Shown one piece after another: positions 6,017-62,952 of a stretch of DNA of 64,000 bases (positions within the stretch are counted from its first letter, which is position 1; every line of letters begins with the position of its first letter). The notes under the pieces were generated by a model, which saw only the letters and a program-made list of their open reading frames with translations, ran no database searches and was not told where the DNA came from. Source of the DNA: Toxorhynchites rutilus septentrionalis (lineage: Eukaryota; Arthropoda; Insecta; Diptera; Culicidae); assembly GCF_029784135.1 (NCBI RefSeq), contig NC_073744.1, forward strand, positions 106,446,266 to 106,510,265, in the 5' to 3' direction. The translations under genes and the position numbers were made by a program.

Positions 6017-6060
6017 TACTATCCGGTACTACAGCCGTCTCGATTATTCATCTCTTATGG

Positions 6061-13301: not shown

Positions 13302-13477
13302 AAAAGACGGGTGGGTAATGTCGGGGACATAACCGGAGTGACGTAGGACTATACAAAGGGGACAGCTTTTGTTAAATATATATTTTAAATATATTGTTTT
13401 ATTTTCTTCTCCTACGTGAATACCTACCTATCTACCTGAAAAATGGATTAGTGTACTGTTTACTCTTTATGAATATG

Positions 13478-13494
13478 TTGATGGTTCTGAAAAG
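13478..13494 (-). promoter_or_regulatory. Histone-type 3' stem-loop (module M1, first unit)
   Basis: On the minus strand this reads GGTTCTTTTCAGAACC, a perfect 6-bp stem with a UUUC loop matching the metazoan histone mRNA 3' signal bound by SLBP. No H2A body follows upstream in this copy, because the first H2A unit was deleted. Coordinates are good to a base or two. Confidence 0.75.
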
Positions 13495-14075
13495 AACCTT
13501 TGGTGTTGTGTTTTTGTTATCACTCGATATTCCCATCTTGTTCGGTTAAACCTTCCTGTTTAGCTATTGCGTTTGCCACTCGCCACAGCTTTCACAGTTG
13601 GAAAATTTCTTCCCATCCAGCTTTGTGACATATTGTACAGTAAATTACATTCAATGCGACGTGCCGAAGCGCCACTCAGTGTCGCATTGGAGGCGATTTT
13701 AACCTGTAATTGAACATTTGCGATGACAGTGGTACAGTGTCGACTTTCAATGTGGGGTCATAATTTGGATCTCTATGTTTACAAAAATGTCCAACTAAAT
13801 AAGTCGCATTACATGTCCGTCCAATTAGCTAAATGTCGAACTAATTGTAAATTACTGTACTTTCAATCTGGAAACAATTTAAGAATTGGTGAAAATTGAA
13901 TAATCAGGAAATTCCCCAACTATCAATTAGCTCAGAACAACTGCCAAATTCACATACTCATCATATCCTGGCAAACAAATTATGAAAAAATCAATTTGTG
14001 TTTTATTATTATTTTGGATATTGTTTTAGAAAGCATTGAACTGTATTTCCTAAACTCTTTTTTGGAAGGTTTAAT

Positions 14076-14091
14076 GGCCCTGAAAAGCGCC
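14076..14091 (-). promoter_or_regulatory. Degenerate histone-type 3' stem-loop (M1)
   Basis: The minus strand reads GGCGCTTTTCAGGGCC: a histone 3' stem-loop with one mismatched stem pair. It lies about 220 bases downstream of the H2A relic at 14300-14516. The same mismatch recurs in three other copies, so it predates the spread of the family. Confidence 0.7.
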
Positions 14092-14299
14092 TTGTTTTAT
14101 GGAATGGTTCCAATTTAGAAAACTTAGTACTCGTGGTTTTGAAAAAAACCATTTCGAACGCCCTCTTTACCGCCTTGTTCTGGATTTGCCACCAAAGCAG
14201 TTTGTACGAAGAACAAACGTTTTTCTTCTGCTACCTGCTGCCGTATTGCGATTGCGTTTGCGTCCGCCTGTTGTTGTCTTGATGCCCACCGAACCAAAG

Positions 14300-14516
14300 C
14301 GCAAGCAGTTTTGCCAGCCAACTCGATCACTTCGGCAGCCGGCGAAGAACTCTATAACGGCGGCTAGGTGGACTGGTGCACTGGTAATAACGCGCTCGGC
14401 CTAGCTACCCTTGCGGAGTAATTGGCGAATACACCTACGGGAAACTGCAGTCCAAAATGGTTCGAGCGGAATTTTGCCTTTCCCTTCACTTTTCCTCCTT
14501 TACCATGTCCAGACAT
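14300..14516 (-). pseudogene. Histone H2A pseudogene (relic a)
   Basis: From the ATG at 14516 the minus strand reads an H2A N-tail, [15 protein letters not shown], then RSN and a recognisable LQFPVG. The LLRKG and AER positions follow as fragments with a stop and frame slips. After a gap comes EVIELAGKTA, equivalent to the H2A EVLELAGNAA helix. The docking domain and C-terminal tail are not recognisable. Upstream (14620-14790) lie an AT-rich TATA-like element and a CCAAT box (GACCAATCAAA on the plus strand). Real insect H2A is about 124 residues; this copy cannot encode a histone. Confidence 0.8.
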
Positions 14517-15071
14517 GGCTGCTTGGGTTGGTTTGTTGATGTGTTGTGATGCGAACCGATGTGGTGTACGGTTTGAATGAGAATGATCGTTTCGGCAGCG
14601 GAGCGGGGATTTTTAAGCTGACTGGTTGGCTCGAGAATTACGCATGTGTGAGACTGCGACCAATGTTTCGTTCATTTTTTTTCTTTTTCCTTTCCAATCG
14701 TGCTTCATTGTATTTCGCTGCTGCTCTGGTTGCCCGTTTTGGTCGGTACGATTTGAGGAGCACAAAATGGACCAATCAAAAATGGGCTCATAATGCATTT
14801 GGACAATGCTTGATATTTCACAATTATTCAATTATTTATCTCAAGAAAAATGAAATGTTATTCGTTATGATAGATGCGTAGATATATTTCCTATCAATTG
14901 ATGCAAAAACCTTTGCGATCTATTGAGAAATGCTCGAGTTATAAGCGTTCCAAATCTTGCATTTTTTCCTACTTGTTCAGTGCCTAGATTTTCATTTCAC
15001 CCCCTATATCTTCGCTTTATTCAGCCAATGGTTAAGGAGATTCGGGTTTCCATCGTAGTCGTTTATAGTTT

Positions 15072-30253: not shown

Positions 30254-31020
30254 TTAAGCGTTACGAGTGTTGTTGTCTTCTGCATAGAATTTATGTGAAT
30301 CTGGATTTCATACAATGCTGCTGATGGGAACAAAACACCGTCTACAGACATGAATCTGAATTTCTAAATAATTGATCAGATACAAGTATAAAATCGAATT
30401 TATTGCGAATATTACATGAAAACCGTTGGTATTCTTACATTGCTTTACTGATATGTTACAGACTTTTTTTTACGAAATACTGATAGGTGTTCACTGGGAT
30501 TAATTTTCGTAAAGGGAAAATTGTGCAAAAAAAAAAATGAGTGGGTTATATCTATGATATAACCGCAAGGTTCACGTGGAACTACCTTAGCTTAGCAATC
30601 ATTCGTTTGTATTGATTAAATTATTGATTGAATGAAACAGTTTCCAAATTCAATTGAGTTCAATATATTTGCTCTGTGAGTGAAAAAAATGAACAAATGC
30701 CGTGTAAAGTCAATTCATTTATTGTGATTGATTGTTCTTCGTTACAAGTAAATTTAATGACGGACCTTTTACGTTTGGTATGATGACTAGAACAAAATAT
30801 ATGTACGGAAGAATTATCAAACGTTTGATGAACCAGCCTAAGGCTGAAAATCTTTCCAATAAAGACAAAAAAAAATTATCAAACGATTATTTTATTTTAC
30901 ATTTCCCTCTGAAGTTTACATCCCAAAAGTGTACATACTTCTCGAATCTCGAATTTGCTTGAAACTGGGAATTTCATTCGCTTCTAGTGGCTGCACGATT
31001 TTCCCAGGTTCCTAAGTTTA
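30254..31020. other. Region without recognised gene
   Basis: AT-rich. At 30541-30590 is GTGGGTTATATCTATGATAT followed by AACCGCAAGGTTCACGTGG, an inverse relative of 24618-24660 and probably a MITE end. A 76-codon frame at 30732-30962 has no recognisable motif. Confidence 0.4.
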
Positions 31021-31440
31021 GAAGATCATGTTAGGACAGACATATTCCACTCTGCACAAAGGCAAGCGAGGACAAAAGTACTCGCAGTTTGCATTTATTT
31101 GCAGAGCCGATTTCCCCAGAAACCTCGGTTTTGAAGTCTGTGTTAGGGAAACACATTTCAATCGGAACAAAAATACCCCCGATTTGTATGAATTTGCAAT
31201 GCCGATTTCCCCACGCTTCATGGATTTAAAGTCTGTGTTAGGGAAACACATTCCAGTCGGAACAAAAATACCCCCGACTTGCATGAATTTGAAATACCGA
31301 TTTCTCCAGGCACCTTGGTTTAGAAATCTCTATTAGAGAACACATTTCGGTGGGAACAATACTTTCATGTATTTGCAATGCCGATTTCCCCAAGGCTGCT
31401 TGGTTTTGATGGCTGTGTTAGGGAAACCGTAAATCGGGCC
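31021..31440 (+). repeat. Tandem repeat, ~95 bp unit, about four copies
   Basis: Units share GTTAGGGAAACACATT, CGGAACAAAAATACCCCC and GCCGATTTCCCCA, with spacing of roughly 93-97 bp. Two central units are well conserved and the outer ones are diverged. No coding function is inferred. Confidence 0.65.
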
Positions 31441-31479
31441 AATCAAAACGATGCAGTTAGGGCGTTTAGATAACACTTG

Positions 31480-31890
31480 ACATTTTACAGTTATTCAATT
31501 GTTCATTTCATGAAAAATTATATTTTATTAATTGTGATAGACGCCTAGAAATATTTCCTATCAGTTCATGCAAACAACTTTCCGATTTGTTAAGAAATGT
31601 TCGAGTTATAAGCATTCGAATACGGGTAGAGTTAGCACACAAATCGGCAGAACAAATGTATGTGATAAAAGGAAGTTCTTCCAGTTTTCATGAATTAAAA
31701 CCATTTAGAGATTAGCTATTTGTAATGTATAGCATATCAAACAAATCTTAGAGAATTTCCGATTCGATTGGTATGTAAATCATGAGAATTCGTTTACAGT
31801 GAAAATAGTTATTAACGTTAACTTTATTTCATAAAAACGTGACCTGTTTTCTGATTTGACACCCTTCCTGAAAGACGTAGTTCTACGTCA
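31480..31890. repeat. Diverged fragments of module end and foldback element
   Basis: 31480-31640 resembles the end region of the H2A modules (TTATTCAATTGTTCATTTCA, ...GTTCGAGTTATAAGCATTC). 31640-31890 resembles one arm of the foldback at 48245-48773 and ends with the palindrome GACGTAGTTCTACGTC (31874-31889). Confidence 0.6.
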
Positions 31891-32089
31891 AAAAACATTA
31901 TGACCCGGAGCACACTGATCTCATCGCGCAAATCAATTTTGCAATGCCTAGAGTAAAGATTGTTTTCAACTTTCAGGAATAAATAATTAACAAAAAACTT
32001 TTCGCGGAATTTTTTGCGCGTTTTGCAAGTTAAATGTGTGAGTAACTAATATGCATCAAAACAATGAATGTATTAAAATATGTTGTACC

Positions 32090-36550: not shown

Positions 36551-36562
36551 CCAACTCAGTTG

Positions 36563-36564
<2 letters not shown>
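36551..36564. repeat. Target-site duplication, left copy (full-length R1-clade LINE)
   Basis: CCAACTCAGTTGTC, repeated at 42445-42458. It lies two bases upstream of the gag ATG of BEL/Pao element 1. Confidence 0.9.
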
Positions 36565-36597
<33 letters not shown>

Positions 36598-36869
36598 GAG
36601 GTGAGGAACGCTCTTCCAGCCTTATCTGGGAAGGGATAACCCAGACGTCGAGTGGGGATCGCACCCACAAAAACCAAGCCCTCTACTCGTAGCCTCATTC
36701 CCCCCGGGACCACATCTAGGCGACTACTTCAGGGGGCGGCTGTGCTCATGCACTTCACGAGTTTTCAACGCTAACTAGCGTTGATCCTTCCCTTTTTCTC
36801 TATACATCTCATTTACGTTTCCGTTGTACTCCGCCACGCACATCTGCTGCACAGGCTTCCTTTTACCCG

Positions 36870-37460
36870 TCGAGACGTGTACCGATTAGGAATTGCCCTC
36901 CAACTTGACGCGCAACCCGTCACAGTCACCCTCGCGGGGTTTCTCACCTGTCGAGACGTGAACCGATTAGGAAGCGCCCTCCATCTTGACGCGCGCCCAG
37001 TCACAGCCACCCTCGCAGGATTTCTCTTCCCAACGGAGCGCCGATTAGGCAGTGCCCTCCAACATAACGCGCACTCCGTCACAGCAACTCTCGTGGGGTA
37101 CCCGCCGATTTGATGATGCTCTCCTAGGCTCTCGCTCCGCCGAAACGATCCTCGCAATGTTCCTCTCTCCATCCACCAACAGGCATTGCCAGCATTTTCT
37201 TGGCCCTGCTCTCCAGATTCCGCTTACCCGTCGAGACGTGTACCGATTAGGAATTGCCCTCCAGCTTGACGCGCAATCCGTCACAGTCACCCTCGCGGGG
37301 TTTCTCACCTGTCGAGACGTGAACCGATTAGGAAGCGCCCTCCAACTTGACGCGCGCCCCGTCACAGCCACCCTCGCAGGATTTCTCTTCCCAACGGAGC
37401 GCCGACTAGGCAGTGCCCTCCAACATAACGCGCACTCCGTCACAACGACTCTCGTGGGGT
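36870..37460 (-). repeat. Two blocks of ~80 bp tandem repeats in R1-clade 3' UTR
   Basis: Three units at about 36866-37100 and three at about 37230-37460, each with CGAGACGTG or a GGAGCGCCG variant, CCGATTAGG, GCCCTCCA, ACGCGC and GTCAC. Unit spacing is 78-81 bp. The two blocks are near-duplicates separated by ~130 bp of unique sequence. Their presence in both copies shows that they belong to the element. Confidence 0.8.
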
Positions 37461-37503
37461 ACTACACTTTGCAACAGCCCTCGCATTTGTTCCTCTTCTA
37501 TGG

Positions 37504-40452
37504 TCAGGGGTTATTACTACGCTGGTCGGCCCTCCACTTCCGCTGTAGCTCGGACATGATGTGTATGATCACACTGTTCACAGCGTTCCAGGTGCCCTCA
37601 TCGCGACACATTTTCTCTACTATGTTCCCGGCATGAAGGGCAGGCAGCCCCTCGCGTCTTGCGGTGAACCTGGGACACACAAATACCACGTGTTCTGGTG
37701 TTTCCTCCACATCTTCACACTCCGGACAGAGTGGCGACGTTGCGTGCCCGAACCGGTGCAAATATTGCCTGAAGCAGCCATGTCCAGACAGGAACTGTGT
37801 CAGATGAAAATTCACCTCCCCGTGCTTCCTGTTCAGCCAGGTCGATAGTACCGGTATGAGCCCATACGTCCACCTGCCTTTCTCCGCCGTGTCCCATTCC
37901 TGCTGCCACTTCAAGAGTGATTCTACTCTCGCTGTTTTCCGGATACCCCTGATTTCCTTTCGTCTGTAGCACTCTCTGTCTTCCGCCAGAGTGATGCCAA
38001 TAGGGATCATGCCGGCGATAACGCAGACTGCCTCCAACGAGATCGTCCTATACGCGCTCGCAACTCGCATCGCCATGAGCCGAAACGTACGGTCCAGTTT
38101 TCTACGATTCCGGTGGGTTTCGAGAGCCGCAGACCAGGCTGGTGCTCCGTACCGCAGTATGGACGAGGATACAGCAGCCAGGAGACGCCTTTTGCTACTG
38201 CAAGGTCCTGCGTTATTCGGCATTATTCTCGCTATCGCGCTAATGGACTTCTCTGCTTTCTCGCAGACGTAGTCGACGTGGTTGTTGAAATTCAGCCGGT
38301 CGTCGATCATAACTCCCAAATATTTCAACCTACGCTTAGAAGGTATCACGTGTTCCCCGACTGTAATTTCCGCTCGCTGCACGGCTTTGCAGTTACTCAC
38401 CAACAATACTTCCGTTTTATTATGAGCAATCTGCAGTTTCGCTGCTTGCATCCAGTTCTCTACTGAGACGATGGACTCGATTGCAAGCATCTTCACCTCT
38501 TCGAGTGTCTCGCCTGCCACTGTGAGAGCGATATCATCCGCGAAGCCCACGATCTCCACGCCTTTGGGAAGCTTCAGATTCAGTACACCGTTATACATTA
38601 CGTTCCAGAGCGTTGGGCCCAGGATAGAGCCTTGTGGTACGCCGGCCGTTATATTCAACGTTGTCCGCCCCATGCTCGTCTCGTAGACTAGGACGCGGTT
38701 CTGAAAGTAGCTTCCTAGAATTCTGCACAGGTACCCAGGAACCTTCATACGGTGTAGGGACTCGGCAATGGCTTCCCAGCTAGCGCTGTTGAAAGCATTC
38801 CTCACGTCGATCGTTACTATAGCACAATGTCGGTCGCCCCTCCGCTTTTGCTGTGATGCCTTCTCTGCTTTTTCAACCACTGTCCGGATAGCATCAACGG
38901 TGGACCTGCCTTTCCGGAATCCAAACTGCATCTTTGACAGACCATGGTCACTCTCCGTACATTTCGTCAGTCTGTTGAGAATAATCCTTTCCAAGAGTTT
39001 CCCGAGCGTATCCAGCAGGCATATAGGCCTATAGGATGTTGGTACCCCCGGGGGCTTTCCTGGTTTTGGCAGCAACACTAACTTTTGGATCTTCCATTTC
39101 TTAGGAAAGTGACCATCATCCAGGCATTTCTGTAGCACTATCCTGAAGATGCCCGGGAACGCCTGAATCGCCGTTTTCAAGGCCGCGTTGGGGATTCCGT
39201 CGGGGCCGGGCGCTTTCTTTACCTGCAGTCTCTTCTCCACTGCTACCAGTTCTTCATTGGAAACTTGAGAACGTTCGGTAGCTATTTCGGCGTACGGTGT
39301 CGGTGGCCATATCGTAGGATCATGCATCGGAAATAAACCCTCCACAATGACCTTCAGCTTCTCGGGACACGATTCGACGGGCGTCACAGGTCCTCTGATC
39401 TTCGCCATCACGACTCGATACGCGTTGCCCCATGGGTTGGCATCTGCCTCTCGGCACAGCTCCTTAAAACAGTTCGCTTTGCTCATTGTAATTTCCCGTT
39501 TCAAGGCGGCTCTAGCTGCTCGGTACACCGTATTACGTTCCTCTCTATCAGCACTGTTTCGTGCTCTCTGAGCGCGTCTTCTGGCTCGAAGACAGCTAGC
39601 GCGAAGGTTGCGGAGAGAGTCGTTCCACCAGTAAGCTGGGCGTCTTCCATTTTTTGGTGCAACTTTCCTCGGCATGGTAGTGTCGCATGCTCTCACCAGT
39701 AGATCTGTCAACTTTTCTGCGTTCCAATCTGAAACTCCGCTATCTAGACGAAGTGCTTCGACGAAAAGGTCCTTGTCGAAAGCATTCGTCTTCCACTTCC
39801 GCTCACAGCTTGTTGTCCTCCGAACTCGCACGTGGTTTCGTTGACCGATTCTGTACCGGATCGCCTGGTGATCACTGTGCGTATACGACTCGCACACTTT
39901 CCACTCCGTACTCGCTAACAGCGACGGACTGCAAAAAGTAACGTCGATGATGGATTCGCGCCCATCTTTCCGGAAAGTGCTGGTGGTACCTTCGTTCAGT
40001 AACGTTACTTCCAGCTTTGCTAGAGCTTCCAGTAGACTGTACCCTCTGATGTTGGTGCATCTACTTCCCCACTCCACCGCCCAGGCGTTGAAGTCGCCTC
40101 CAATGACGATCGGTGTTCTACCAATTAGTTCCTCGGTCATTGCGTCTAGCATCAGGTGGAATTGATCAGTTGTCCATCTCGGGGGTGCGTAGCAACTACA
40201 CATGAAGATTCCATTAATTTTGGCGATTACGAAACCTTCATGTGAACCTCCAACCACTTCCTGGATAGGATATCTGCCCATCACCTGTATTGCAGCAATC
40301 CCTAAACTATCCGTCGCCCAGCTGCCGTTATCACGGGGTACTCGGTACGGCTCCGCTATGATTGCAACGTCGCATTTTGTCTCTGTTGTCGACTGCCACA
40401 ACAGTTGCTGAGCTGTGTTGCAATGGTTCAGATTGATCTGAATTATCTCCGT
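37504..40452 (-). CDS. R1-clade LINE ORF2: APE endonuclease and reverse transcriptase
   Basis: Open from just after the ORF1 end to 37504; 965 codons count from the first in-frame ATG (40401). The sister copy shows that the true start is 17 codons further upstream, where this copy has ACG in place of ATG (40452). The APE domain has AEPYRVP, GGDFNAW (about residues 102-107) and YTHSDHQA (about 175-180). The RT has GPDGIPNAALK, SYRPICLLDTLGK, AIVTIDVRNAFNSASW, GVPQGSILGPTLWN and the catalytic FADD (about 620). A C-terminal CPECEDVEETPEHVVFVC Cys/His motif is at about 890. The enzyme nicks target DNA and primes reverse transcription there. No internal stop is present. Confidence 0.88.
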   Translation of the reverse strand, partial: TEIIQINLNHCNTAQQLLWQSTTETKCDVAIIAEPYRVPRDNGSWATDSLGIAAIQVMGRYPIQEVVGGSHEGFVIAKINGIFMCSCYAPPRWTTDQFHLMLDAMTEELIGRTPIVIGGDFNAWAVEWGSRCTNIRGYSLLEALAKLEVTLLNEGTTSTFRKDGRESIIDVTFCSPSLLASTEWKVCESYTHSDHQAIRYRIGQRNHVRVRRTTSCERKWKTNAFDKDLFVEALRLDSGVSDWNAEKLTDLLVRACDTTMPRKVAPKNGRRPAYWWNDSLRNLRASCLRARRRAQRARNSADREERNTVYRAARAALKREITMSKANCFKELCREADANPWGNAYRVVMAKIRGPVTPVESCPEKLKVIVEGLFPMHDPTIWPPTPYAEIATERSQVSNEELVAVEKRLQVKKAPGPDGIPNAALKTAIQAFPGIFRIVLQKCLDDGHFPKKWKIQKLVLLPKPGKPPGVPTSYRPICLLDTLGKLLERIILNRLTKCTESDHGLSKMQFGFRKGRSTVDAIRTVVEKAEKASQQKRRGDRHCAIVTIDVRNAFNSASWEAIAESLHRMKVPGYLCRILGSYFQNRVLVYETSMGRTTLNITAGVPQGSILGPTLWNVMYNGVLNLKLPKGVEIVGFADDIALTVAGETLEEVKMLAIESIVSVENWMQAAKLQIAHNKTEVLLVSNCKAVQRAEITVGEHVIPSKRRLKYLGVMIDDRLNFNNHVDYVCEKAEKSISAIARIMPNNAGPCSSKRRLLAAVSSSILRYGAPAWSAALETHRNRRKLDRTFRLMAMRVASAYRTISLEAVCVIAGMIPIGITLAEDRECYRRKEIRGIRKTARVESLLKWQQEWDTAEKGRWTYGLIPVLSTWLNRKHGEVNFHLTQFLSGHGCFRQYLHRFGHATSPLCPECEDVEETPEHVVFVCPRFTARREGLPALHAGNIVEKMCRDEGTWNAVNSVIIHIMSELQRKWRADQRSNNP

Positions 40453-40465
40453 TACTGCGATTCTG

Positions 40466-41851
40466 CTAACGCCTTCTTATACACTTGGGACACTTGAAGC
40501 TTCCTGTCGCATGGTCGCTGCCGTTCTCTGGTTTGCAGAGCAGGCATTTCGGTTGCTTCGTGCAGTCTCTCGCAACGTGCCCTTTCTCACCGCATCTCCT
40601 GCACAGTTCAGACCTGTCGGGGCCTGTGCAGCTTCTTGCCTGATGTCCAAAGCCCATGCACTGGAAGCATCGCTCCATCCGCTTGGTCACCCGGGGCACC
40701 ATCTTCAGCGAGCAAACCGACCAGCCAACTTTTATTTTGGTCGTTTCTACCATCTTATTGGCTGCGACTGTTGAGAGCCGTATCGACGCCGTCTGCGTAC
40801 CACCATACGCCTTCCTCATACGGATCGTCATTGGTGTATTGTCCAGCTTACACTGTTCTATCAACTCGCGCCTCAGCTCCTCGTCTGTCGTGATTTCGTC
40901 CAGATTTCTGCATTCGACCACTGATTCCTGGGAAAGAGCCCTCACCTTCACTTCCTCACCGAGCGACTTCGCAACCAGTTCCTTGAAGGCTGAACTTTTG
41001 ACCGCCGGATCCCTCTTGAGCTCGAAGAGCATCTCTCCTTTCTGGGTACGCCTGGTTTTCACCACCTTCTCTCCCAGTTCTTTCAACTCCGAATCGTCCC
41101 TCACTTTCCGTAGAAGTGATGCATAAGTCACTCCTTCCTTCACCTCGACGATCAGGGCCTCTCCCTTACTACGCTCGCGTCGGGGCCTAGGTTTTTTTGT
41201 CTCCTGCACCCCTTTCTTCTTTTCTTCTTTCTTCTTTCGTTTCTCCGTCTGTTTTTCGACAGTGCGCCATCCACTGCCTTCACCTTCCTTTTTGTTTCCC
41301 AGGTTATCATTTTTAACCTTCTTCAGGTCTTCTTCATCCCCTGGGGTATCCCTCTTCCTTTTGTCCGATCGTGGATTTCGTGGCGTCTTCGGCGTCTCCT
41401 GTATCTCGACGGACATCTTCACCCTTGCTTCAGCGAGTGCTTTTTCGACAACCTCTGCTCGCGTGATCATCTCCTTCTGTTCACGGTCAGCAGCCGTAAC
41501 GGCCGATTTGATGCTTGTGACTAAATGTTTTATCTTAGTATGGACATTGTTTTTGTCCTTAATGAACTCGTAGAGTTCATTCACTTTTTTCTTGACCTCC
41601 ATCAAGCTTGACCTCCCGACCTGCAGCCCTTCTAAAGAAGTGGTGGTGTTGGCTTTATGCGTTAGCACTTGTATCAGGCTACTCTCTCCTTGTTGTGGAT
41701 CCTGTTGGTGTCCTGTAGGATTCGCTATGGCTGTCTGGTTGCGAATTGGTGATCTCTGGAGCTTACCGCTCCTTGCGAACACGCTCGCCTCTCCTGTTGG
41801 TGTGTCTTCATTACCGTCGTTTCGTCTGTTGAATTGTTCGAAGGTATTCAT
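40466..41851 (-). CDS. R1-clade LINE ORF1 (gag-like, three zinc knuckles)
   Basis: 461 codons from the ATG at 41851. Residues 1-110 are variable, and 110-260 are charged and coiled-coil-like with Lys/Glu-rich stretches. A conserved region has ALIVEVKEGVTYASLLRKV. The C-terminus carries CFQCMGFGHQARSC, CRRCGEKGHVARDC and a CLLC...H...C knuckle for RNA binding. Compared with the copy at 6378-7959, the last few codons are out of register and end early at TAG (40466-40468). The family-type stop/start overlap is visible a few bases on as TAACG. This is the only clearly altered part of ORF1. Confidence 0.85.
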   Translation of the reverse strand: MNTFEQFNRRNDGNEDTPTGEASVFARSGKLQRSPIRNQTAIANPTGHQQDPQQGESSLIQVLTHKANTTTSLEGLQVGRSSLMEVKKKVNELYEFIKDKNNVHTKIKHLVTSIKSAVTAADREQKEMITRAEVVEKALAEARVKMSVEIQETPKTPRNPRSDKRKRDTPGDEEDLKKVKNDNLGNKKEGEGSGWRTVEKQTEKRKKKEEKKKGVQETKKPRPRRERSKGEALIVEVKEGVTYASLLRKVRDDSELKELGEKVVKTRRTQKGEMLFELKRDPAVKSSAFKELVAKSLGEEVKVRALSQESVVECRNLDEITTDEELRRELIEQCKLDNTPMTIRMRKAYGGTQTASIRLSTVAANKMVETTKIKVGWSVCSLKMVPRVTKRMERCFQCMGFGHQARSCTGPDRSELCRRCGEKGHVARDCTKQPKCLLCKPENGSDHATGSFKCPKCIRRR

Positions 41852-42444
41852 GTCTGTTGGGTCCCAACTTCGGGCCGCTATCTCCGCTCGTTGTACATAG
41901 TCGCTATCAGTGATCCCATGGTTATCTATGCAAGCAGTGAGGCCATGCAGGGGTTGACACGGTCCTTCATGGGGACCGTGTTCAGAGCCAGATCAGCGCA
42001 AGTCAGGAATGTGACATCTGACGCCTAGTACCTAGTGCCTGAGCCTAGACGAGCATCGAACGTACCCGAAGACTTGCCAAGTTATTACCGGGACGGGGGC
42101 AATCGCACTATTAGCCCACACGCCGTTTCAGGAAGGTGTCACTCTTCCTTACTCAGGGAACAGGATAGTACGACTGTCAGCCTTCAGCGTCGTGTTGAAA
42201 TCGTTTCCGTAACGTGTCCATTTTCCATGTCGTAACCAGTATGTCGTAATCAGGATCTTACTGGCGTCGATCCTGATGTGCTTGGCACTCCTTGCGTTGC
42301 TCCTGTACACGGTATTTCCCCCGTGCAATCTCCAATAGGCTTTACCGCGCCCTTACTCGCGTTGTCACCCGATAAGTCGCCTCATACGACAGGGACAGGG
42401 ACCAAGACCCGAAGTGCTATTCTAGGCCGGCAACTCCACGGCCA
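41852..42444 (-). other. R1-clade LINE 5' UTR
   Basis: Non-coding. It matches 7960-8479 and ends exactly at the target duplication (42445). It presumably holds the internal promoter; no element is recognisable by eye. Confidence 0.7.
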
Positions 42445-42458: not shown

Positions 42459-42583
42459 TAAACAGAATCATTTGTATGTATGATCGAATTATTTGAAGAA
42501 TGTTGTAGTGGACGGAAAAAATAGCTTATTAATGAAGCGCTTCAAAGCTGAAATTTTAAGACCTGTCAGAAACTATGTGAATA
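42459..42583 (-). other. BEL/Pao element 1, 5' flank of gag (displaced)
   Basis: Sequence that lay upstream of the BEL/Pao gag before the R1-clade insertion; it continues directly from the target duplication. It is cut at 42584 by the H2A module, so the 5' LTR of this element is not identifiable. Confidence 0.5.
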
Positions 42584-42765
42584 AAAAAGACGGGTGGGTA
42601 ATGTCAGGGACATAACCGGAGTGACGTAGGACTATACAAAGGGGACAGCTTTTGTTAAATATATATTTTAAATATATTGTTTTATTTTCTTCTCCTACTT
42701 GAATACCTACCTATCTACCTGAAAAATGGATTAGTTCACTGTTTACTCTTTATGAATATGTTGAT

Positions 42766-42781
42766 GGTTCTGAACAGAACC
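42766..42781 (-). promoter_or_regulatory. Histone-type 3' stem-loop (M2, unit 1)
   Basis: Minus strand GGTTCTGTTCAGAACC: intact 6-bp stem with one loop change from the histone consensus. It lies about 200 bases downstream of relic b. Confidence 0.7.
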
Positions 42782-42977
42782 TTTGGTGTTGTGTTTTTGT
42801 TATCACTCGATATTCCCACTCGCCACAGCTTTCACAGTTGGAAAATTTCTTCCTATCCAGCTTGTGACATGTTGTTCAGTAAATTACATTTAATGCGACG
42901 TGCCGGAGAAACACTTTGCCACTCACTGAAACTAATTGTTGCCTTGATGAGCGCCGAACCGAAGCTGCTCTGTTCTT

Positions 42978-43210
42978 GATGCGGGTTTTCTGATTGTCGT
43001 GAGCAGCTTTGCAAGCCAACTCGAGCACTCCGACGGCCGAAACTCTATAATCGCTGTTAGGTATACTGGTGCTCCGGCACCAATCCGTTCGGCCTAGTTA
43101 CCCTTGCGGAGCAATCAGTGAATGCGACCAACAGGAAACTGGAGACTTGCACGGTTCGAGTGAGACTTTGCCTTTCCCTTAACTTGTCCTCCTTTGTTAC
43201 GTCCACGATG
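42978..43210 (-). pseudogene. Histone H2A pseudogene (relic b)
   Basis: Reading the minus strand from 43210: GR-KGG-VK, KAKS and SNRAGLQFP-like pieces, GRIH, LLRKGN, AER-GAGAPVYL with stops and slips, then a VLELA-like helix and a QKTRI-type end at about 42978. The order of these blocks is that of H2A from the N-tail through the first helices to the docking helix. A TATA-like GTATAAAAC lies upstream near 43288-43296 (minus strand). The relic is the mirror counterpart of relic e. Confidence 0.8.
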
Positions 43211-43445
43211 CCGATGCCGTACAACCACACGGGTTTACGGTTTGAAAGAAAATATGATATTTTTTTGGGGTCCGCGTGTTTTATACTCTAGCGGTACACA
43301 CTCACAGGATAGAGACAAATCGGCAGACTCAGCCAGAGGGGCGAGTCCAACGAGACGAACGAATGAGCGTTAAAAGGGAGCGATGGCAAAAAAATTCATT
43401 CATTACGATTTGTTCGCTCGTTGGATTCACATGCAGGCTAAAAAG

Positions 43446-43461
43446 GGTCCTTTTCAGGATC
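43446..43461 (+). promoter_or_regulatory. Orphan histone-type stem-loop on the opposite strand
   Basis: Plus strand GGTCCTTTTCAGGATC: six pairs including one G-U, with a TTTC loop. It points away from relic b, as a divergent second histone gene would. Only a promoter-like stretch and ~150 bp of non-histone sequence lie between the two, so a partner gene body seems to have been lost. Confidence 0.55.
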
Positions 43462-44042
43462 ACAAAATTATCTTCAATCTAAAGAGTTTATTGTTTTGTT
43501 GTCACTCGATATCCCCATCTTGTTCGGCTAAACCTTTCTGTTTAGCGATTGCATTTGCCACTCGCCTCAGCTTTCACAGTTGGAAAATTTCTTCCCATCC
43601 AGCTTGTGACATATTTTACAATAAATTACATTCAATGGCACGTCGCATTACCACCACTCAGTATCGGATTGGAGGTAATTTTAACCTGTAATTGAATATT
43701 TGCGAAGACAGTGGTACAGTGTCGGCATTCAATGTGGGGTCATAATTTGGACCCCGAACTCTATGTTTACAAAAATGTCCAACTAAATATGTCGCATTAC
43801 AGGTCCGTCCAATTAGCTAAATGTCGAGATAAGTGTAAATTACTGTACTTTCAATCTAGAAGCAATTTAAGAATTGGTGAAAATCAATAAGCTCAGAACA
43901 ACTGCCAAATTCACATACTCAAACAAATGATCTCCTGGCAAACAAATTATGAAAAAATCAATTTGTGTTTTATTATTATTTTGGATATTGTTTTAGAAAG
44001 CATTGAACAGTATTTCCTAAACTCTTTTTTGGAAGGTTTAAT

Positions 44043-44058
44043 GGCCCTGAAAAGCGCC
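44043..44058 (-). promoter_or_regulatory. Degenerate histone-type 3' stem-loop (M2, unit 2)
   Basis: Minus strand GGCGCTTTTCAGGGCC, the same one-mismatch variant as in the other unit-2 copies. Confidence 0.65.
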
Positions 44059-44299
44059 TTGTTTTATGGAATGGTTCCAATTTAGAAAACTTTGTACTCG
44101 TGGTTTTGAAAAAACCATTTCGAACGCCCTCGATGCCGCCTTGTTCTGGATTTGCCACCAAAGCAGATTGATAAAAAAAAACATTTTTTCTTCTGCTACC
44201 AGCTGCCGTTTTGCGATTGCGTTTGCCACTTGCCACTCGCTGCAAATGCTAGTTGTCTTGATGTCCTCCGAATGTGTTCTGATCCGAATGCAGTTTTTT

Positions 44300-44417
44300 T
44301 AATCGTCGCGAGCAGCTTTACCAGCTAACTCGATCACTTCGGCGGCCGAAACTAAACACGGTTCGAGCGGGATTTTGCCTTTCCCTTCACTTTTCCTCCT
44401 TTGCTATGTCCTGACAT
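44300..44417 (-). pseudogene. Histone H2A pseudogene (relic c, internally deleted)
   Basis: The ATG at 44417 opens [19 protein letters not shown], clearly an H2A N-tail. The next ~150 bases of histone fold are deleted. The remainder joins to EVIELAGKAAR (EVLELAGNAAR-like), ending near 44300. Upstream at 44447-44670 are the same TATA/CCAAT-like sequences as in relics a, d and f. Confidence 0.8.
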
Positions 44418-44938
44418 GGCTGCTTGTGTTGGTTTGTTGATGTGATGTGATGCGAAACAATGTGGTGTACGGTTTGGATGAGAATGATCGTTACGGCAGC
44501 GGAGCGGGGATTTTTAAGCTGACTGGCTGGCTCGAGAATTACGCATGTGTGAGACTGCGACCAATGTTTCGTTCATTTTTTTCTTTTTCCTTTCCAATCG
44601 TGCTTCATTCTATTTCGCTGCTGCTCTGGTTGCCCGTTTTGGTCGGTACGATTTGAGGAGCACAAAATGGACCAATCAAAAATGGGCACATAGTGCATTT
44701 TGACAATGCTTGATATTTCACAATTATTCAATTATTTATCTCAAGAAAAATGAAATGTTATTCGTTATGATAGATGCGTAGATATATTTCCTATCAATTG
44801 ATGCAAAAACCTTTGCGATCTATTGAGAAATGCTCGAGTTATAAGCGTTCCAAATCTTGCAATTTTTCCTACTTGTTCAGTGCCTAGATTTCCATTTCAC
44901 CCCCTATATCTTCCGGTTAGACGTAGTCCTACGTCAAA

Positions 44939-45351
44939 ATATATACTACATACAATTAAGTTTCCTAACAACGCTAACAACGTAATATATCCAATAGATT
45001 TCGCTTTGTCAATCCAATTCGCCTAAGCTGAAATCTATTGTACAATCCATTAGGTCTGCTACTGATATTAATTTAGATCTCTCAATACCTACTTCTTATT
45101 TATCAATGGATTAATTCAGTATTTTTTAATTAATATAAATTTTTGTCGCATTCAATGATTATCCTAAGCATCCGTGGTAAATACCGGCATAAAACAATAA
45201 ACCGAGATGTCAAACCGTTGTAGCTGATGGCTGCCTTTGTTGTGCAGGGCTACCTACATCGTCCGGGTTACCAGCAGGGTTGCCATAATAAACTCTGTAA
45301 TTTTGGTCCCAAGAAATCTATTTATCTGTGTTTTTTCTCAGAAAATCTGTA
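44939..45351. other. Unassigned AT-rich region
   Basis: No gene or named repeat recognised. Confidence 0.4.
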
Positions 45352-45904: not shown

Positions 45905-46391
45905 ATTTATTAGTTCAATCTTAAAGCATAAACTTAGCTTTAGTATAATTGATAGTCATAGTTATTATGAACTTGGCGATGTTGATGGTATCCATGTAAA
46001 AAACGTAATCACTGTGCTTTAGTAGGACTAAGATAGACAGTGTTATTTATTTATTGTAAAGTTATCCGATGACGCAGACTTTTGCATTTTTTCGCCTTAG
46101 ATTGAACATTAGAAAGCAGTACTGCACGCTACATATGAATGATAAAATGACTCTCATTCAGACTGATTCCAATCTTTTTTTTTAGACTTTCAGCCTTCTG
46201 GGCTGGTTCGTCTCAGCAATAACGACCGAAACCATGCCGCGATGTGCGATTACAATAAATTTTAATTTATTTTACATGCACATACGGACTAGCAACTAAC
46301 AATAGTACCATAAACAAGAAACAAATTTCATCACGAGAGTTTCCACACATTAGAGCTTTTGTTTTTTTTTGACGTAGAACTACGTCTTTTA
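45905..46391. other. Unassigned region
   Basis: AT-rich, no gene recognised. It ends with the palindrome GACGTAGAACTACGTC at 46371-46386. Confidence 0.4.
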
Positions 46392-48244: not shown

Positions 48245-48773
48245 TCGTTATTGACAGCTCTGTTAGGGAAAGCACATAAATGGACAGAACAAATGTATGG
48301 GAAAATGGAAACGCTTAAAGTTTTCATGAATTTCAACCATTCACAATCTTAGGGAATTTCCGATTTGTTCAGTATGTAAATCGCCAAAATCCGTTCGCGG
48401 CAAAAATGGTTATTAATGTTCACTTTATTCCGTAAAAACGTGACCTGTTTTCTGATTTGGCACCCTTAATGAAAGACGTAGTTCTACGTCAAAAAACGGA
48501 CACGTTTTTATGAAATAAAGTTAACCTTAATAACTATTTTTGCCGCGAACGGATTTGGCGATCTACATACCAAACGAATCGGAAATTTCCTCAGATTCGT
48601 TTGATATGCTATTCTTTATAATGGTTATAATTTTTATGAATTATAACCATTTACACACACATATCCCCTGGTGTGTAAATGGTTATAATTCATAAAAACT
48701 ATATGCATTTCCATTTTCGCATACATTTGTTCTGCTGATTTGTGAGTTTTTCTACCCGTGCCGTCAATAACGA
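48245..48773. mobile_element. Foldback (long inverted repeat) element
   Basis: Ends TCGTTATTGACAG and CCGTCAATAACGA are inverted. The arms (about 48245-48465 and 48495-48773) pair over most of their length. The centre holds the palindrome GACGTAGTTCTACGTC (48475-48490), and a smaller nested hairpin lies at 48615-48700. It has no coding capacity. One arm is repeated at 31640-31890. Confidence 0.7.
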
Positions 48774-51271: not shown

Positions 51272-51485
51272 CAAAAAAGACGGGTGGGTAATGTCGGGGA
51301 CATAACCGGAGTGACGTAGGACTATACACAGGGGACAGCTTTTGTTAAATATATATTTTAAATATATTGTTTTATTTTCTTCTCCTACGTGAATACCTAC
51401 CTATCTACCTGAAAAATGGATTAGTTTACTGTTTACTCTTTATGAACATGTTGATGGTTCTGAAAAGAACCTTTGGTGTTGTTTT
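51272..51485 (+). mobile_element. H2A-module left end, solo, plus orientation
   Basis: Repeats the first ~210 bp of modules M1 and M2, including a perfect histone-type stem-loop near 51465 (minus strand GGTTCTTTTCAGAACC). It is joined directly to the right end of module M3 in inverted orientation. Confidence 0.75.
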
Positions 51486-52001
51486 GACGTAGGACTACGT
51501 CTAACCGGAAGATATAGGGGGTGAAATGGAAATCTAGGCACTGAACAAGTAAGAAAAAATGCAAGATTTGGAACGCTTATTACTCGAGCATTTCTCAATA
51601 GATCGCTGAGGTTTTTGCATCAATTGATAGGAAATATATCTACGCATCTATCATAACGAATAACATTTCATTTTTCTTGAGATAAATAATTGAATAATTG
51701 TGAAATATCAAGCATTGTCAAAATGCACTATGTGCCCATTTTTGATTGGTCCATTTTGTGCTCCTCAAATCGTACCGACCAAAACGGGCAGCCAGAGCAG
51801 CAGCGAAATAGAATGAAGCACGATTGGAAAGGAAAAAGAAAAAAAAGAACGAAACATTGGTCGCAGTCTCACACATGCGTAATTCTCGAGCCAGCCAGTC
51901 AGCTTAAAAATCCCCGCTCCGCTGCCGTAACGATCATTCTCATTCAAACCGTACACCACATCGGTTCGCATCACAACACATCAACAAACCAACCCAACCC
52001 T

Positions 52002-52203
52002 GGACATGGTAAAGGAGGAAAAGTGAAGGGAAAGGCAAAATCCCGCTCGAACCGTGTTGATCTGGAGTTCCCCGCAAGGGTAGCTAGGCCGAGCGCGTTA
52101 GTACCAGTGTACCAGTCCACCTAGTCGGCGTTATATAGTTTCGGCCGCCGAAGTGATCGAGTTAGCTGGCAAAGCTGCTCGCGACGATAAGAAAACCCGC
52201 ATT
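52002..52203 (+). pseudogene. Histone H2A pseudogene (relic d)
   Basis: [18 protein letters not shown] reads cleanly from 52002 (the start codon is lost), then LEFP, a deletion, and [12 protein letters not shown] in a shifted register corresponding to ERIGAGAPVYL. After a slip, EVIELAGKAARDDKKTRI ends near 52203. This is H2A from the N-tail to the docking helix with a ~20-residue gap. The upstream segment (51760-51975) has CCAAT and TATA-like sequences. Confidence 0.82.
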
Positions 52204-52439
52204 CGGAACAGAACACATTCGGTTCGGTGGACATCAAGACAACAGGCAGTTGCAGCGAGTGGCGAGTGGCAAACGCAATCGCAAAACGGCATCAGGTAGC
52301 AGAAGAAAAAAGTTTGTTCTTTATACAAACTGCTTTGGTGGCAAATCCAGAACAAGGCGGCATCGAGGGCGTTCGAAATGGTTTTTTTTCAAAACCACGA
52401 GTACAAAGTTTTCTAAATTGGAACCATTCCATAAAACAA

Positions 52440-52455
52440 GGCGCTTTTCAGGGCC
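52440..52455 (+). promoter_or_regulatory. Degenerate histone-type 3' stem-loop (M3, unit 2)
   Basis: GGCGCTTTTCAGGGCC, one stem mismatch. It lies ~240 bases downstream of relic d, in the sense direction. Confidence 0.7.
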
Positions 52456-53302
52456 ATTAAACCTTCCAAAAAAGAGTTTAGGAAATACAGTTCAATGCTT
52501 TCTAAAACATTATCCGAAATAATAATAAAACATAAATTGATTTTTTCTTAATTTGTTTGCCAGGATCTGATGAGTATGTGAATTTGGCAGTTGTTCTGAG
52601 CTTATTGATAGTTGGGGACTTTCCTGATTATTCAATTTTCACCAATTCTTAAATTGTTTCCAGATTGAAAGAACAGTAATTTACAATTAGTTCGACATTT
52701 AGCTAATTGGACGGACATGTAATGCGACTTATTTAGTTGGACATTTGTGAACATAGAGATCCAAATTATGACCCCACATTGAAAGTCGACACTGTCCACT
52801 GTCATCGCAAATGTTCCATTACAGGTTAAAATCGCCTCCAATGCGACACTGAGTGGCGCTTCGGCACGTCGCATTGAATGTAATTTACTGTACAACATGT
52901 CACAAAGCTGGATGGGAAGAAATTTTCCAACTGTGAAAGCTGTGGCGAGTGGCAACAAATCGCTAAACAGGAAGGTTTAGCCGAACAAGATGGGGATATC
53001 GAGTGATAACAAAACAATAAACTCTTTAGATTGAAGATAATTTTGTGATCCTGAAAGGACCCTTTTTAGCCTGCATGTGAATCTAACGAGCGAACAAATC
53101 GTAATGAATGTATTTTTTTGCAATCGCTCCCTTTTAACGCTCATTCGTTCGTCTCGTTGGACTCGCCCCTCTGGCTGAGTCTGCCGATTTGTCTCTATCC
53201 TGTGAGTGTGTACCGCTAGAGTATAAAACACGCGGACCCCAAAAAAATATCTTATTTTCTTTCAAACCGTAAACCCGTGTGGTTGTACGGCATCGGCATC
53301 GT

Positions 53303-53527
53303 GGACGTAACAAAGGAGGACAAGTTAAGGAAAGGCAAAGTCTCACTCGAACCGTGCAGGTCTCCAGTTCCCTATTGGTCGCATTCACTGATTGCTCCGC
53401 AAGGGTAACTAGGCCGAACGGATTGGTGCCGGAGCACCAGTATACCTAACAGCGATTATAGAGTTTTGGCCGTCGGAGTGCTCGAGTTGGCTTGCAAAGC
53501 TGCTCACGACAATCAGAAAACCCGCAT
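53303..53527 (+). pseudogene. Histone H2A pseudogene (relic e)
   Basis: GRNKGGQVK, a 1-base deletion, then [26 protein letters not shown], a stop where Tyr is expected, AERIGAGAPVYLTAIIEF, a frame slip, and VLELACKAAHDNQKTRI ending near 53527. This is the best-preserved relic: about 85 residues can be followed in order. Upstream at about 53220 is GTATAAAAC. The C-terminal docking tail is missing. It is a pseudogene by stops and indels. Confidence 0.85.
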
Positions 53528-53767
53528 CAAGAACAGAGCAGCTTCGGTTCGGCGCTCATCAAGGCAACAATTAGTTTCAGTGAGTGGCAAAGTGTTTCTC
53601 CGGCACGTCGCATTAAATGTAATTTACTGAACAATATGTCACAAGCTGGATGGGAATAAATTTTCCAACTGTGAAAGCTGTGGCGAGTGGCAAACGCAAT
53701 AGCTAAACAGGAAGGTTTAACCGAAGAAGATGGGAATATCAAGTGATAACAAAAACACAACACCAAA

Positions 53768-53783
53768 GGTTTTTTTCAGAACC
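53768..53783 (+). promoter_or_regulatory. Histone-type 3' stem-loop, degraded (M3, unit 1)
   Basis: GGTTTTTTTCAGAACC: same position as the perfect stem-loop of other copies, with one stem change. Confidence 0.6.
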
Positions 53784-54521
53784 ATCAACATATTCATAAA
53801 GAGTAAACAGTAAACTAATCCATTTTTCAGGTAGATAGTCAGGTATTCACGTAGGAGAAGAAAATAAAACAATATATTTAAAATATATATTTAACAAAAG
53901 CTGTCCCCTTTGTATAGTCCTACGTCACTCCGGTTATGTCCCCGACATTACCCACCCGACTTTTTTTTTTGTTATCACTCGATATTCCCATCTTGTTCGG
54001 TTAAACCTTCCTGTTTAGCTATTGCGTTTGCCACTCGCCACAGCTTTCACAGTAGGAAAATTTCTTCCCATCCAGCTTGTGACATGTTGTTCAGTAAATT
54101 ACATTTAATGCGACGTGCCGGAGAAACACTCAGTGTCGCATTGGAGGCGATTTTAACCTGTAATTGAACATTTCCGATGACAGAGGTACAGTGTCGACAT
54201 TCAATGTGGGGTCATAATTTGGACCCCGAACTCTATGTTTACAAAAATGTCGCATTACAGATCCATCCAATTAGCTAAAAGTCGAGCTAAATATAAATTA
54301 CTGTACTTTCAATCTAGAAGCAATTTAAGAATTGGTGAAAATTGAATAATCGGGGAAGTCCCCAACCATCAATAAGCTCAGCACAACTGCCGAATTCTCA
54401 TACTCATCATATCCTGGCAAACAAATTATGAAAAAATCAATTTGTGTTTTATTATTATTTTGGATATTGTTTTAGAAAGCATTAAACTGTATTTCGTTAA
54501 CTCTTTTTTGAAAGGTTTAAT

Positions 54522-54537
54522 GGCCCTGATAAGCGCC
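54522..54537 (-). promoter_or_regulatory. Degenerate histone-type 3' stem-loop (M4)
   Basis: Minus strand GGCGCTTATCAGGGCC: the unit-2 variant with one extra loop change. Confidence 0.6.
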
Positions 54538-54784
54538 TCGTTTTATGGAATGGTTACAATTTAGAAAACTTTGTACTCGTGGTTTTGAAAAAAAACCATT
54601 TCGAACGCCCTCGATGCCGCCTTGTTCTGGATTTGCCACCAAAGCAGATTGTATAAAGAACAAACTTTTTTCTCATGCTACCCGCTGTCGTTTTGCGATT
54701 TTGCCACGTTTGCCACTCGCCACTCGCTGCAACTGCCTGTTGTTGTCTTGATGTTCACCGAACCGAATGTGGTCTGTTCTGAAT

Positions 54785-54976
54785 GTGGGTTTTCTTATCG
54801 TCGCGAGCAGCTTTTCCACTTCGGTGGCCGAAACTATATAACGCCGGCTAGGTGGACTGATGCACTGGTACTAACGCGCTCGGCCTAGCTACCCTTGCGG
54901 GGAACTCCAGACTAACACGGTTCGAGCGGGATTTTGCCTTTCCCTTCACTTTTCCTCCTTTGCCATATCCAACCAT
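54785..54976 (-). pseudogene. Histone H2A pseudogene (relic f)
   Basis: From the ATG at 54976 the minus strand reads [20 protein letters not shown], then a deletion to GVPRKG-like and shifted AER fragments. After a further gap come KAARDDKKT residues near 54785. The helix corresponding to IELAG is deleted. The upstream CCAAT/TATA-like block is retained at 55020-55240. Confidence 0.78.
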
Positions 54977-55497
54977 GGCTGCTTGTGTTGGTTGATTGAT
55001 GTGATGTGATGCGAAACGATGTGGTGTACGGTTTGGATGAGAATGATCGTTACGGCAGCGGAGCGGGGATTTTTAAGCTGACAGGCTGGTTCGAGAATTA
55101 CGCATGTGTGAGACTGCGACCAATGTTTCGTTCATATTTTTTCTTTTTCCTTTCCAATCGTGCTTCGTTGTATTTCGCTGCTGCGCTGGTTGACCGTTTT
55201 GGTCGGTACGATTTGAGGAGCACAAAATGGACCAATCAAAAATGGGCACATAGTGCATTTGGACAATGCTTGATATTTCACAATTATTTAATTATTTATC
55301 TCAAGAAAACTGAAATGTTATTCATTATGATAGATGCGTAGATATATTTCCTATCAATTGATGCAAAAACCTTTGCGATCTATTGAGAAATGCTCGAGTT
55401 ATAAGCGTTCCAAATCTTGCATTTTTTCCTACTTGTTCAGTGCCTAGATTTTCATTTCACCCCCTATATCTTCCGGTTAGACGTAGTCCTACGTCAA

Positions 55498-56200: not shown

Positions 56201-56706
56201 TGTTGCGTACATCCCTGATGAGAAGCAACGCGCTGACGTTTGAACTGCGAGAGCTTTGAGATCCACCTTGTTCAGGTTCTTGAAAAGCCTTTTTTTACGT
56301 TTCCTAAAATAGCTCAACTTCTTCTTCTTTTGATCGGAAAAGGACAATGCAAGTTGAACTATCCTGAAGAAACGTTATCTCTACTCACTTGATAAACTCT
56401 GTGTAATCTAATCTAACTTTATACTGTATATATATATATAAATACGCTGAAAGGTAGTTCATGTAGATATCCCGATTGAAGGCCATACTTATATAATATT
56501 TGTATTTAGGAAATATTAAGGGATCGCGGCAATTATATTATCCAGTTTGAGTACGAAGTCACGAGAAACCCACAAACGTGAGTCCTGATACAAACTATTA
56601 ATTCAATGTAACCTAACCTATTATTGTAAACCCTCAGGAAAATTTTAATTATCCATAATTAAATATTAAAATTTCGGAAATCTGTTTCATCTGTTGCTTC
56701 GCAACA
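56201..56706 (+). repeat. 5' LTR, BEL/Pao element 2
   Basis: 506 bp, TGTTGCG... to ...GCAACA. It contains a short (TA)n and TATA-like sequences near 56427-56440. Confidence 0.9.
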
Positions 56707-56747
56707 ATTTAAAATTTTCGTTTCCTGGACTGGATCTATCCGTGAAG

Positions 56748-57508
56748 ATGCCGAAGGACCCGAAAGAAGGAAAAAAAATCCGCTGTCGCAGTCAAGTTGC
56801 GCTGCCTGTCAGTCCATGGACAACAGTCGCATGGTCGCATGTGACGAGTGTGATACTTGGTACCACTACGAATGCGTGGGTGTGTCACAAGACGTGGAGG
56901 AAATAGACTGGAGCTGTAAGAAGTGCGTACTAGCCAGAGCAGCCAAATCCAGGTCAAAATCGCCACAACCGACCACATCAGCACGAACCGTATTGATATC
57001 CACAACAAATGTCACCGCTACCCAAGCAGCACAACAGAGTTACGAGCCACAAGATCCACCCGCAAACAGTGCGGTGGCCCCCGATGCACATGAGGGAACT
57101 TCCCAGGAACAGACGTCGAACGCGATAAGAGAATCATCCGGTAGTGATAATCTCACCCTGGCGCAGAAAATGAAGCTGAAGTACGCTCTCGAAATGAAGT
57201 ATATGGCGAGACGGCGCCAGATCCTGATGGAAACCAACGCAAGTTGTTTTCCTGAAGGTGAAATAAACTCACCTGGGCGTCCTCATTACCATTCGTCTCC
57301 GCACACACCGCTCCGTCCTGACGCGCAGGAATTCCATCCGCGGCCTAGCCAGCAGGCCATTGATTTAGAGCAGAGCGGTTTTTATCAAACGCTGTTAAAC
57401 AGGAGCGAAATAGCAGCGAGGCAAGCTGTTTTCAGGGAACTACCTTATTTCGATGAGGACCTCGAAGAGTGGCCGCTATTTTTTTGCCACATTCGAAAGT
57501 ACCACTAG
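56748..57508 (+). pseudogene. gag: BEL/Pao element 2 gag, N-terminal part (PHD finger)
   Basis: The likely start is the ATG at 56748. The frame is lost in an 8-A run at 56771-56778 (one A short), then picked up by the frame containing CAAC, CDECDTWYHYEC and WSCKKC, a PHD-type zinc finger. A Ser/Thr-rich linker follows, then a helical MKLKYALEMKYMARRRQIL segment and the start of the capsid region. The frame ends at 57508 because of an extra T in the T run at 57479-57485. The next frame continues the same capsid sequence without loss. Both lesions are homopolymer slips and could be sequencing errors. Confidence 0.8.
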
Positions 57509-62426: not shown

Positions 62427-62607
62427 ACTGCGAGAGCTTTGAGATCCACCTTGTTCAGGTTCTTGAAAAGCCTTTTTTACGTTTCCTAAAACAGCTCAAC
62501 TTCTTCTTCTTTTGATCGGAAAAGGACAATGCAAGTTGAACTATCCTGAAGAAACGTTATCTCTACTCACTTGATAAACTCTGTGTAATCTAATCTAACT
62601 TTGTACA

Positions 62608-62690
<83 letters not shown>

Positions 62691-62952
62691 CGCTGAAAGG
62701 TAGTTCATGTAGATATCACGATTGAAGGTCATACTTATATAATATTTGTATTTAGGAAATATTAAGGGATCGCGGCAATTATATTATCCAGTTTGGGTAC
62801 GAAGTCACGAGAAACCCACAAACGTGAGTCCTGATACAAACTATTAATTCAATATAACCTAACCTAATATTGTAAACTTTCAGGAAAATTTTAATTATCC
62901 GTAAATAAATATTAAAATTTCGGAAATCTGTTTCATCTGTTGCTTCGCTACA
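62384..62952 (+). repeat. 3' LTR, BEL/Pao element 2
   Basis: 569 bp. Longer than the 5' LTR because of a (TA)n run at 62609-62686. Ends GCTACA. Confidence 0.9.

Follow-up and report, generated by a model that had tools for sequence, protein, structure and literature searches.

The question raised by this locus is whether the H2A-like stretches that recur in a window of 64,000 nucleotides from Toxorhynchites rutilus septentrionalis are true remains of histone genes and, if so, what kind of DNA carries them. Six relics were identified, two each in repeat copies B and D and one each in copies A and C (Table 1), which bears out the number originally predicted.

Histone H2A relics and their processing signals

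In tblastn searches of the window, the best match to canonical H2A is relic B2 (93 bits, E=6e-26, 43204-43025(-)), followed by D2 (84 bits, E=1e-22, 53329-53481(+)), D1 (E=3e-8, three joined pieces, 52026-52203(+)), and A1 (E=1e-6, 14430-14338(-)). The H2A likeness thus persists in a proper alignment, given that control searches reached at most 20.4 bits with the reversed window and 24.3 bits with 20 shuffles. Two relics score near the best shuffle and are weak alone, namely B1 (28.9 bits, E=0.002) and C1 (25.4 bits, E=0.025); their assignment is clear from DNA homology to D1. The variant H2Av was rejected as parent gene, as B2 scores 48 bits with H2Av and 93 with canonical H2A, and a search of the window for H2B, H3, and H4 relics gave no match below E=0.4.

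Likeness to canonical H2A reaches residue ~81 only, and the H2A reading frame is no longer intact, with a stop at Y39, frame breaks, and an unrecognizable C-terminus. A profile built from two relics and searched against 5.8 billion proteins returned 365 matches. All of the best 120 of these contain the histone domain PF00125, and the canonical TRI-PRH stretch occurs in 117 of the 120. When seven words taken from the relic tail were sought in these best 120 H2A-like proteins, six were absent and the seventh, SRQQ, occurred in one protein.

Table 1. Positions, in window numbering, of the histone relics, their associated signals, and the element copies
Feature	Position	Strand	Remarks
H2A relic A1	14304..14516	-	tblastn, E=1e-6 and 0.001
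H2A relic B2	43025..43204	-	N-terminal half, continuing in another frame to 42969; tblastn
H2A relic B1	44287..44419	-	~100-bp internal deletion; tblastn and DNA alignment
H2A relic D1	52005..52212 (approximate ends)	+	tblastn
H2A relic D2	53303..53537	+	tblastn, main piece and further pieces on both sides
H2A relic C1	54773..54979 (approximate ends)	-	tblastn, E=0.025 and 0.26; DNA alignment to D1
SL2, copy A	13459..13503	-	RF00032, 41 bits
SL2, copy B	42742..42786	-	Histone 3' stem-loop and downstream A-rich element; RF00032, 35.1 bits
SL2, copy C	51432..51476	-	RF00032, 38.7 bits
SL2, copy D	53763..53807	+	RF00032, 34.0 bits (equal to cut-off)
SL1, downstream of B1	44018..44063	-	Weaker stem-loop; RF00032, 24 bits (below cut-off)
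SL1, downstream of D1	52435..52480	+	RF00032, 24 bits (below cut-off)
Candidate third histone 3' end, copy B	43445..43487	+ (opposite strand)	Stem-loop 43445-43461, AAAGAGT 43481-43487; pattern
TATA box upstream of B2	43275..43286	-	GTATAAAACACG
TATA-like box upstream of B1	44508..44518	-	CTTAAAAATCC
CCAAT-like motifs upstream of B1	44558-44567, 44593-44601, 44670-44677	-	ATTGG
Copy A	13306..15013	-	One-relic form; 5' terminal ~25 bp gone
Copy B	42589..44935	-	Two-relic form; ends and self-alignment
Copy C, 3' part (histone orientation)	51279..51485	-	Split by D
Copy C, rest	53961..55495	-	To 5' palindrome
Copy D	51486..53960	+	Two-relic form; nested in C
5' palindromic subterminal repeat, copy B	44920..44935	-	GACGTAGGACTACGTC
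5' palindromic subterminal repeat, copy D	51486-51501		GACGTAGGACTACGTC
5' palindromic subterminal repeat, copy C	55480-55495		GACGTAGGACTACGTC
3' end, copy B	42589..42633	-	Inverted subterminal repeat AGTCCTACGTC, hairpin ATGTC..GACAT, CACCCGTC terminus

Histone-type stem-loops had been noted downstream of the relics, and the strongest of them (SL2) is matched by Rfam RF00032 (curated cut-off 34 bits) in all four copies, in A, B, and C by a whole-window scan and in D by a narrower scan only. SL2 carries stem or loop changes in copies B and D. A weaker stem-loop (SL1) lies downstream of B1 and D1; a lower-threshold scan covering B, C, and D listed none in C. Within the modules there are 10 matches to AAAGAGT, all of which start 15–20 nt past one of ten stem-loop patterns. 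This motif is presumably the A-rich downstream element of histone pre-mRNA. On the opposite strand, a further stem-loop pattern with AAAGAGT close by is present in B and D. Rfam reported nothing for it up to E=0.5, and its folding z score of only -0.91 is no better than that of shuffles; its reading as a third histone 3' end is therefore tentative. Should it be genuine, it may mark where an H2B gene, since lost, ended in a divergent H2B-H2A pair.

The upstream regions also agree with the original description, which had noted CCAAT- and TATA-like sequence. Relic 1 is preceded in all four copies by three CCAAT-like motifs and the TATA-like CTTAAAAATCC, and relic 2 by GTATAAAACACG in both copies that hold it (B and D). 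The furthest CCAAT-like motif may belong to the carrier, since it lies in a block in common with another element of the window that shows no histone match (element E, below).

The downstream element of histone pre-mRNA is cut away from the mature mRNA, from which promoter elements are likewise absent. Retention of AAAGAGT thus argues for the capture of DNA, not mRNA. A retroposed (processed) H2A mRNA pseudogene caught in a SINE-like element would fit the A-runs found at element borders on the + strand, but these A/T runs border the element on either side, beyond the palindrome and hairpin, and promoter-like elements are retained upstream as is AAAGAGT past each stem-loop; the probability of such an origin is close to negligible. 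The relics instead point to DNA-level capture of much of the anatomy of a gene: promoter-like sequence, a partial coding region, the stem-loop, and the downstream element.

Ends, nesting, and class of the carrier

The four copies of the element measure 1.7–2.5 kb and have conserved ends. In the three copies that keep the 5' end (B, C, and D), TTTT is followed directly by GACGTAGGACTACGTC. At the 3' end, all four copies have an inverted AGTCCTACGTC, a hairpin, and CACCCGTC (CACCCGAC in D), then 6–10 T. The hairpin is ATGTC-CCC-GACAT in A, C, and D, and has the loop CCT in B. The element begins GACGTAGG... and finishes ...CCCGTC (CCCGAC in D), inside T-runs, which are found at seven of seven preserved element ends; in copy B they are A-runs on the + strand, at 42583-42588 and 44936-44939. 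The sequence flanking B and C showed no non-T repeat.

This arrangement matches that of HINEs, which are non-autonomous Helentrons; Helentrons are relatives of the rolling-circle Helitrons and carry an endonuclease. As far as the accessible text of PMC4067079 describes them, HINEs have palindromic subterminal repeats 2–4 nt from the 5' end and ~38–60 bp from the 3' end, and a 3' palindrome of 5–10 bp located 8–35 bp from the 3' terminus; HINEs and Culex Helentrons target T-rich or TT sites, with variable terminal Ts, and leave the target unmodified. Each trait has its counterpart here: a palindromic subterminal repeat 2–4 nt from the 5' terminus (B, C, and D), an inverted copy near the 3' terminus (all four copies), a 5–10 bp palindrome 8–35 bp from that terminus, and a T-rich target without target duplication. 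From the end of AGTCCTACGTC to the last non-T base there are 34 nt in all four copies (36–44 nt by the terminal Ts counted), which falls at the low end of published values. It is very probable that the carrier is a HINE that took up histone-cluster DNA with a replication-type H2A gene. Counted against this reading are the absence of a 5' end from copy A, the SL1 scores under the Rfam cut-off in B and D, the failure of the scanned ORFs of the window to yield a Rep, helicase, or endonuclease partner, and the 3' hairpin of D, whose 5-bp stem (-2 kcal/mol) is equalled by 3 of 200 shuffles.

It is quite improbable that the carrier is a transposon of a different class, whether canonical Helitron or cut-and-paste MITE, with ends that resemble those of HINEs by coincidence. 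Its inverted subterminal repeats are MITE-like, it encodes no transposase, and no autonomous partner is seen within the window, where no Rep, helicase, or endonuclease domain was found in the 10 ORFs scanned of 27 listed. However, the termini are asymmetric, the targets are T-runs with no non-T duplication, and the plan of the terminal hairpin is that of HINEs. A canonical Helitron (5' TC, 3' CTRR) was rejected on the observed ends, as elements of that type, according to the accessible text of PMC4067079, have a CTRR terminus and integrate between A and T. Three exact end patterns gave 0, 0, and 1 matches in viral contigs, the single match (L001) looking like chance in a 155-kb contig; that these searches turned up no element with such ends beyond the window is a further point against the HINE reading. 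No similar DNA was found in phage records.

Four modules had been proposed, two of them as neighbors at 51486-53960 and 53961-55497. Four copies are indeed present; these two intervals are not neighboring copies, since D is inserted within C in the opposite orientation. Copies A and B provide the paralogous empty site, an uninterrupted GTGTTGTGTTTTTGTTATC, where C has GTGTTGTTTT, D, and then T10 GTTATC. No non-T sequence is duplicated at the insertion. A G (or TG) present in the empty paralogues is absent there, which is either a small deletion or an earlier difference and is counted against the HINE reading. The suggestion that copies be checked for conserved ends and target duplications is thus answered in two parts: the ends are conserved, and there are no non-T target duplications, which the Helentron class does not make (PMC4067079, accessible text). 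Neither the nesting nor the carrier class (Helentron/HINE) figured in the original prediction.

The nesting of D in C shows the element to be mobile. The six 300-bp flanks share no similarity at E<1e-3, so that A, B, and C lie in unrelated surroundings. Together with the nesting, this indicates that within the 64-kb window the copies do not form a single duplicated block, the case that would have undone the proposal of a mobile repeat bearing histone-gene DNA; with conserved ends, unrelated flanks, and a nested copy, that proposal stands. A decaying local histone cluster, in which a former histone repeat gave rise to the non-mobile modules by tandem or segmental duplication, would account for the confinement of the copies seen here to ~42 kb and for the overlap of two in one block. 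It is nevertheless extremely unlikely in view of the sharp ends and unmatched flanks, the T-run at which D entered C and the corresponding empty site of A and B, the other elements with similar ends, and the pseudogene mutations common to the relics.

A further HINE-like element (E, 30538-31889) carries a palindrome, GACGTAGAACTACGTC, at 31874-31889. Its 3' hairpin has a perfect 9-bp stem (-5.6 kcal/mol; none of 200 shuffles as good), and the hairpin changes between the histone element and E keep the pairing (ATGTC/GACAT vs ATATC/GATAT). E and copy B have a 190-bp 5' block in common (78%), adjoined in E by 95-bp tandem repeats (31107-31427) where B and D hold relics; comparison at low stringency revealed nothing in E that matches the histone part. 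Two more GACGTAGAACTACGTC palindromes lie by T-runs (46371-46386 and 48475-48490) and are probably the 5' ends of other HINE-like elements. The stretches 31744-31896 and 48345-48497 are 85% alike. Another HINE-like 3' end (24615-24663) gave no hairpin on folding, the folded piece being too short, which is also counted against the HINE reading. These palindromes and this 3' end suggest that such elements are common in the window. Arrays of a 197-bp tandem repeat occupy 16507-17835 and 23917-24384, and the position of the second just before the HINE-like 3' end suggests that satellite-like repeats are carried by such elements.

Other repeats of the neighborhood include a BEL/Pao retrotransposon (56427-62952) with a long open ORF (57453-62426) and 280-bp terminal direct repeats (96% alike). 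Residues 600–1100 of this ORF match two Toxorhynchites rutilus septentrionalis proteins, at 98% identity over the whole stretch and at 97% over 87% of it. The top-scoring match in another named species is from Uranotaenia lowii (70%), with partial matches of 72–73%, among the best 120 of 3491. Two related LINE-type copies (5201-8479 and 36560-42441) contain 81-bp tandem repeats (5501-5721, 36865-37093, and 37226-37444).

Order of events and proposed mechanism

Of the six relics, B1 has lost the Y39 site, and the other five all show the stop there. Relics 1 and 2 have in common this stop, a frame break, and, after KTRI, a tail that replaces the H2A C-terminus; most likely, then, the H2A was dead before it was duplicated and spread. 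A repeat block (R) of ~150 bp is an R1/R2 hybrid in A and of R2 type in C, and these two copies accordingly seem to have arisen from the two-relic form through separate deletions. The simplest reading of the order is capture, death, duplication within the element, and spread. The common dead mutations are of value in that they place these events, and the partial deletion, in sequence. Divergence between copies is 4.4–6.8%, from which the spread looks fairly young.

In the mechanism proposed here, histone DNA would have been taken up at the DNA level, through read-through of an end signal or template switching, and the captured stretch would have comprised a replication-type H2A gene with its promoter and 3'-end processing signals. 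The already disabled H2A would have been duplicated in the element, the two-relic element would then have spread, and A and C may each have lost one relic by recombination between the ~150-bp repeats. For its movement, the element would depend on an autonomous Helentron elsewhere in the genome supplying Rep, helicase, and endonuclease in trans. This partner would nick the element at its 3' hairpin end, and the element would be copied as a single-stranded rolling circle and inserted into T-runs with no duplication of the target.

At present the histone part most likely serves no coding role and is carried as a passenger. In favor of a cassette that still serves the element, its promoter and stem-loop yielding S-phase, non-polyadenylated element transcripts, the TATA-like box is kept, and SL2 matched by Rfam, in four of four copies. 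With copies only 4–7% diverged, however, this conservation may reflect youth; moreover, SL2 has changed in stem or loop in B and D, SL1 falls below the cut-off, and the coding part is dead. A working cassette is therefore very unlikely. For annotators of mosquito genomes, the warning is that a gene model resembling H2A could be the relic of a mobile element.

Comparison with known Helentrons

The element shares its end architecture, T-run targets, and lack of target duplication with HINEs of the mite Metaseiulus, Culex, and Drosophila (PMC4067079, accessible text). Some published HINE copies have internal tandem repeats, as does element E here. The mite HINE families differ in that no gene fragments were found in them, as far as that text reports, whereas the interior here is histone DNA. 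DINE-1/INE-1 of Drosophila is likewise a non-autonomous Helentron that targets TT and combines inverted repeats in subterminal position with a 3' stem-loop; in contrast, its subterminal repeats are non-palindromic, and it contains a core sequence as well as a further, distinct short inverted repeat (PMC4067079, accessible text).

The closest parallel is Helentron-Cq-32A of Culex quinquefasciatus, for which fragments of H4 and H1 (H15) and 8 copies are reported in the accessible text of PMC4067079. The original suggestion, that such an element had yet to be described, is not borne out in view of this publication. Compared by description only, both are mosquito Helentrons with palindromic subterminal repeats, a 3' stem-loop, and broken histone gene fragments. 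The Culex fragments, however, derive from H4 and H1, and that family includes an autonomous element, whereas the Toxorhynchites element is non-autonomous and has two H2A relics in its full form, accompanied by promoter-like sequence and signals for 3' processing. There is a small chance that mosquito Helentrons feed on histone clusters, repeatedly or since an ancient event, with S-phase-linked, non-polyadenylated element transcripts produced via the captured promoter and intact 3' stem-loop. If so, a recurrent process would have left its mark in both the Culex (H4/H1) and Toxorhynchites (H2A) elements, element copying would be tied to replication, and small RNAs could target genuine histone genes. 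No other histone capture by a Helentron was found in a literature search of titles and abstract openings, with most subscription journals outside its coverage. On the published description of Helentron-Cq-32A, the only case so found, the Toxorhynchites element appears to be the second known, with H2A and a fuller gene anatomy, and it extends histone capture by Helentrons from one published species to a second mosquito lineage.
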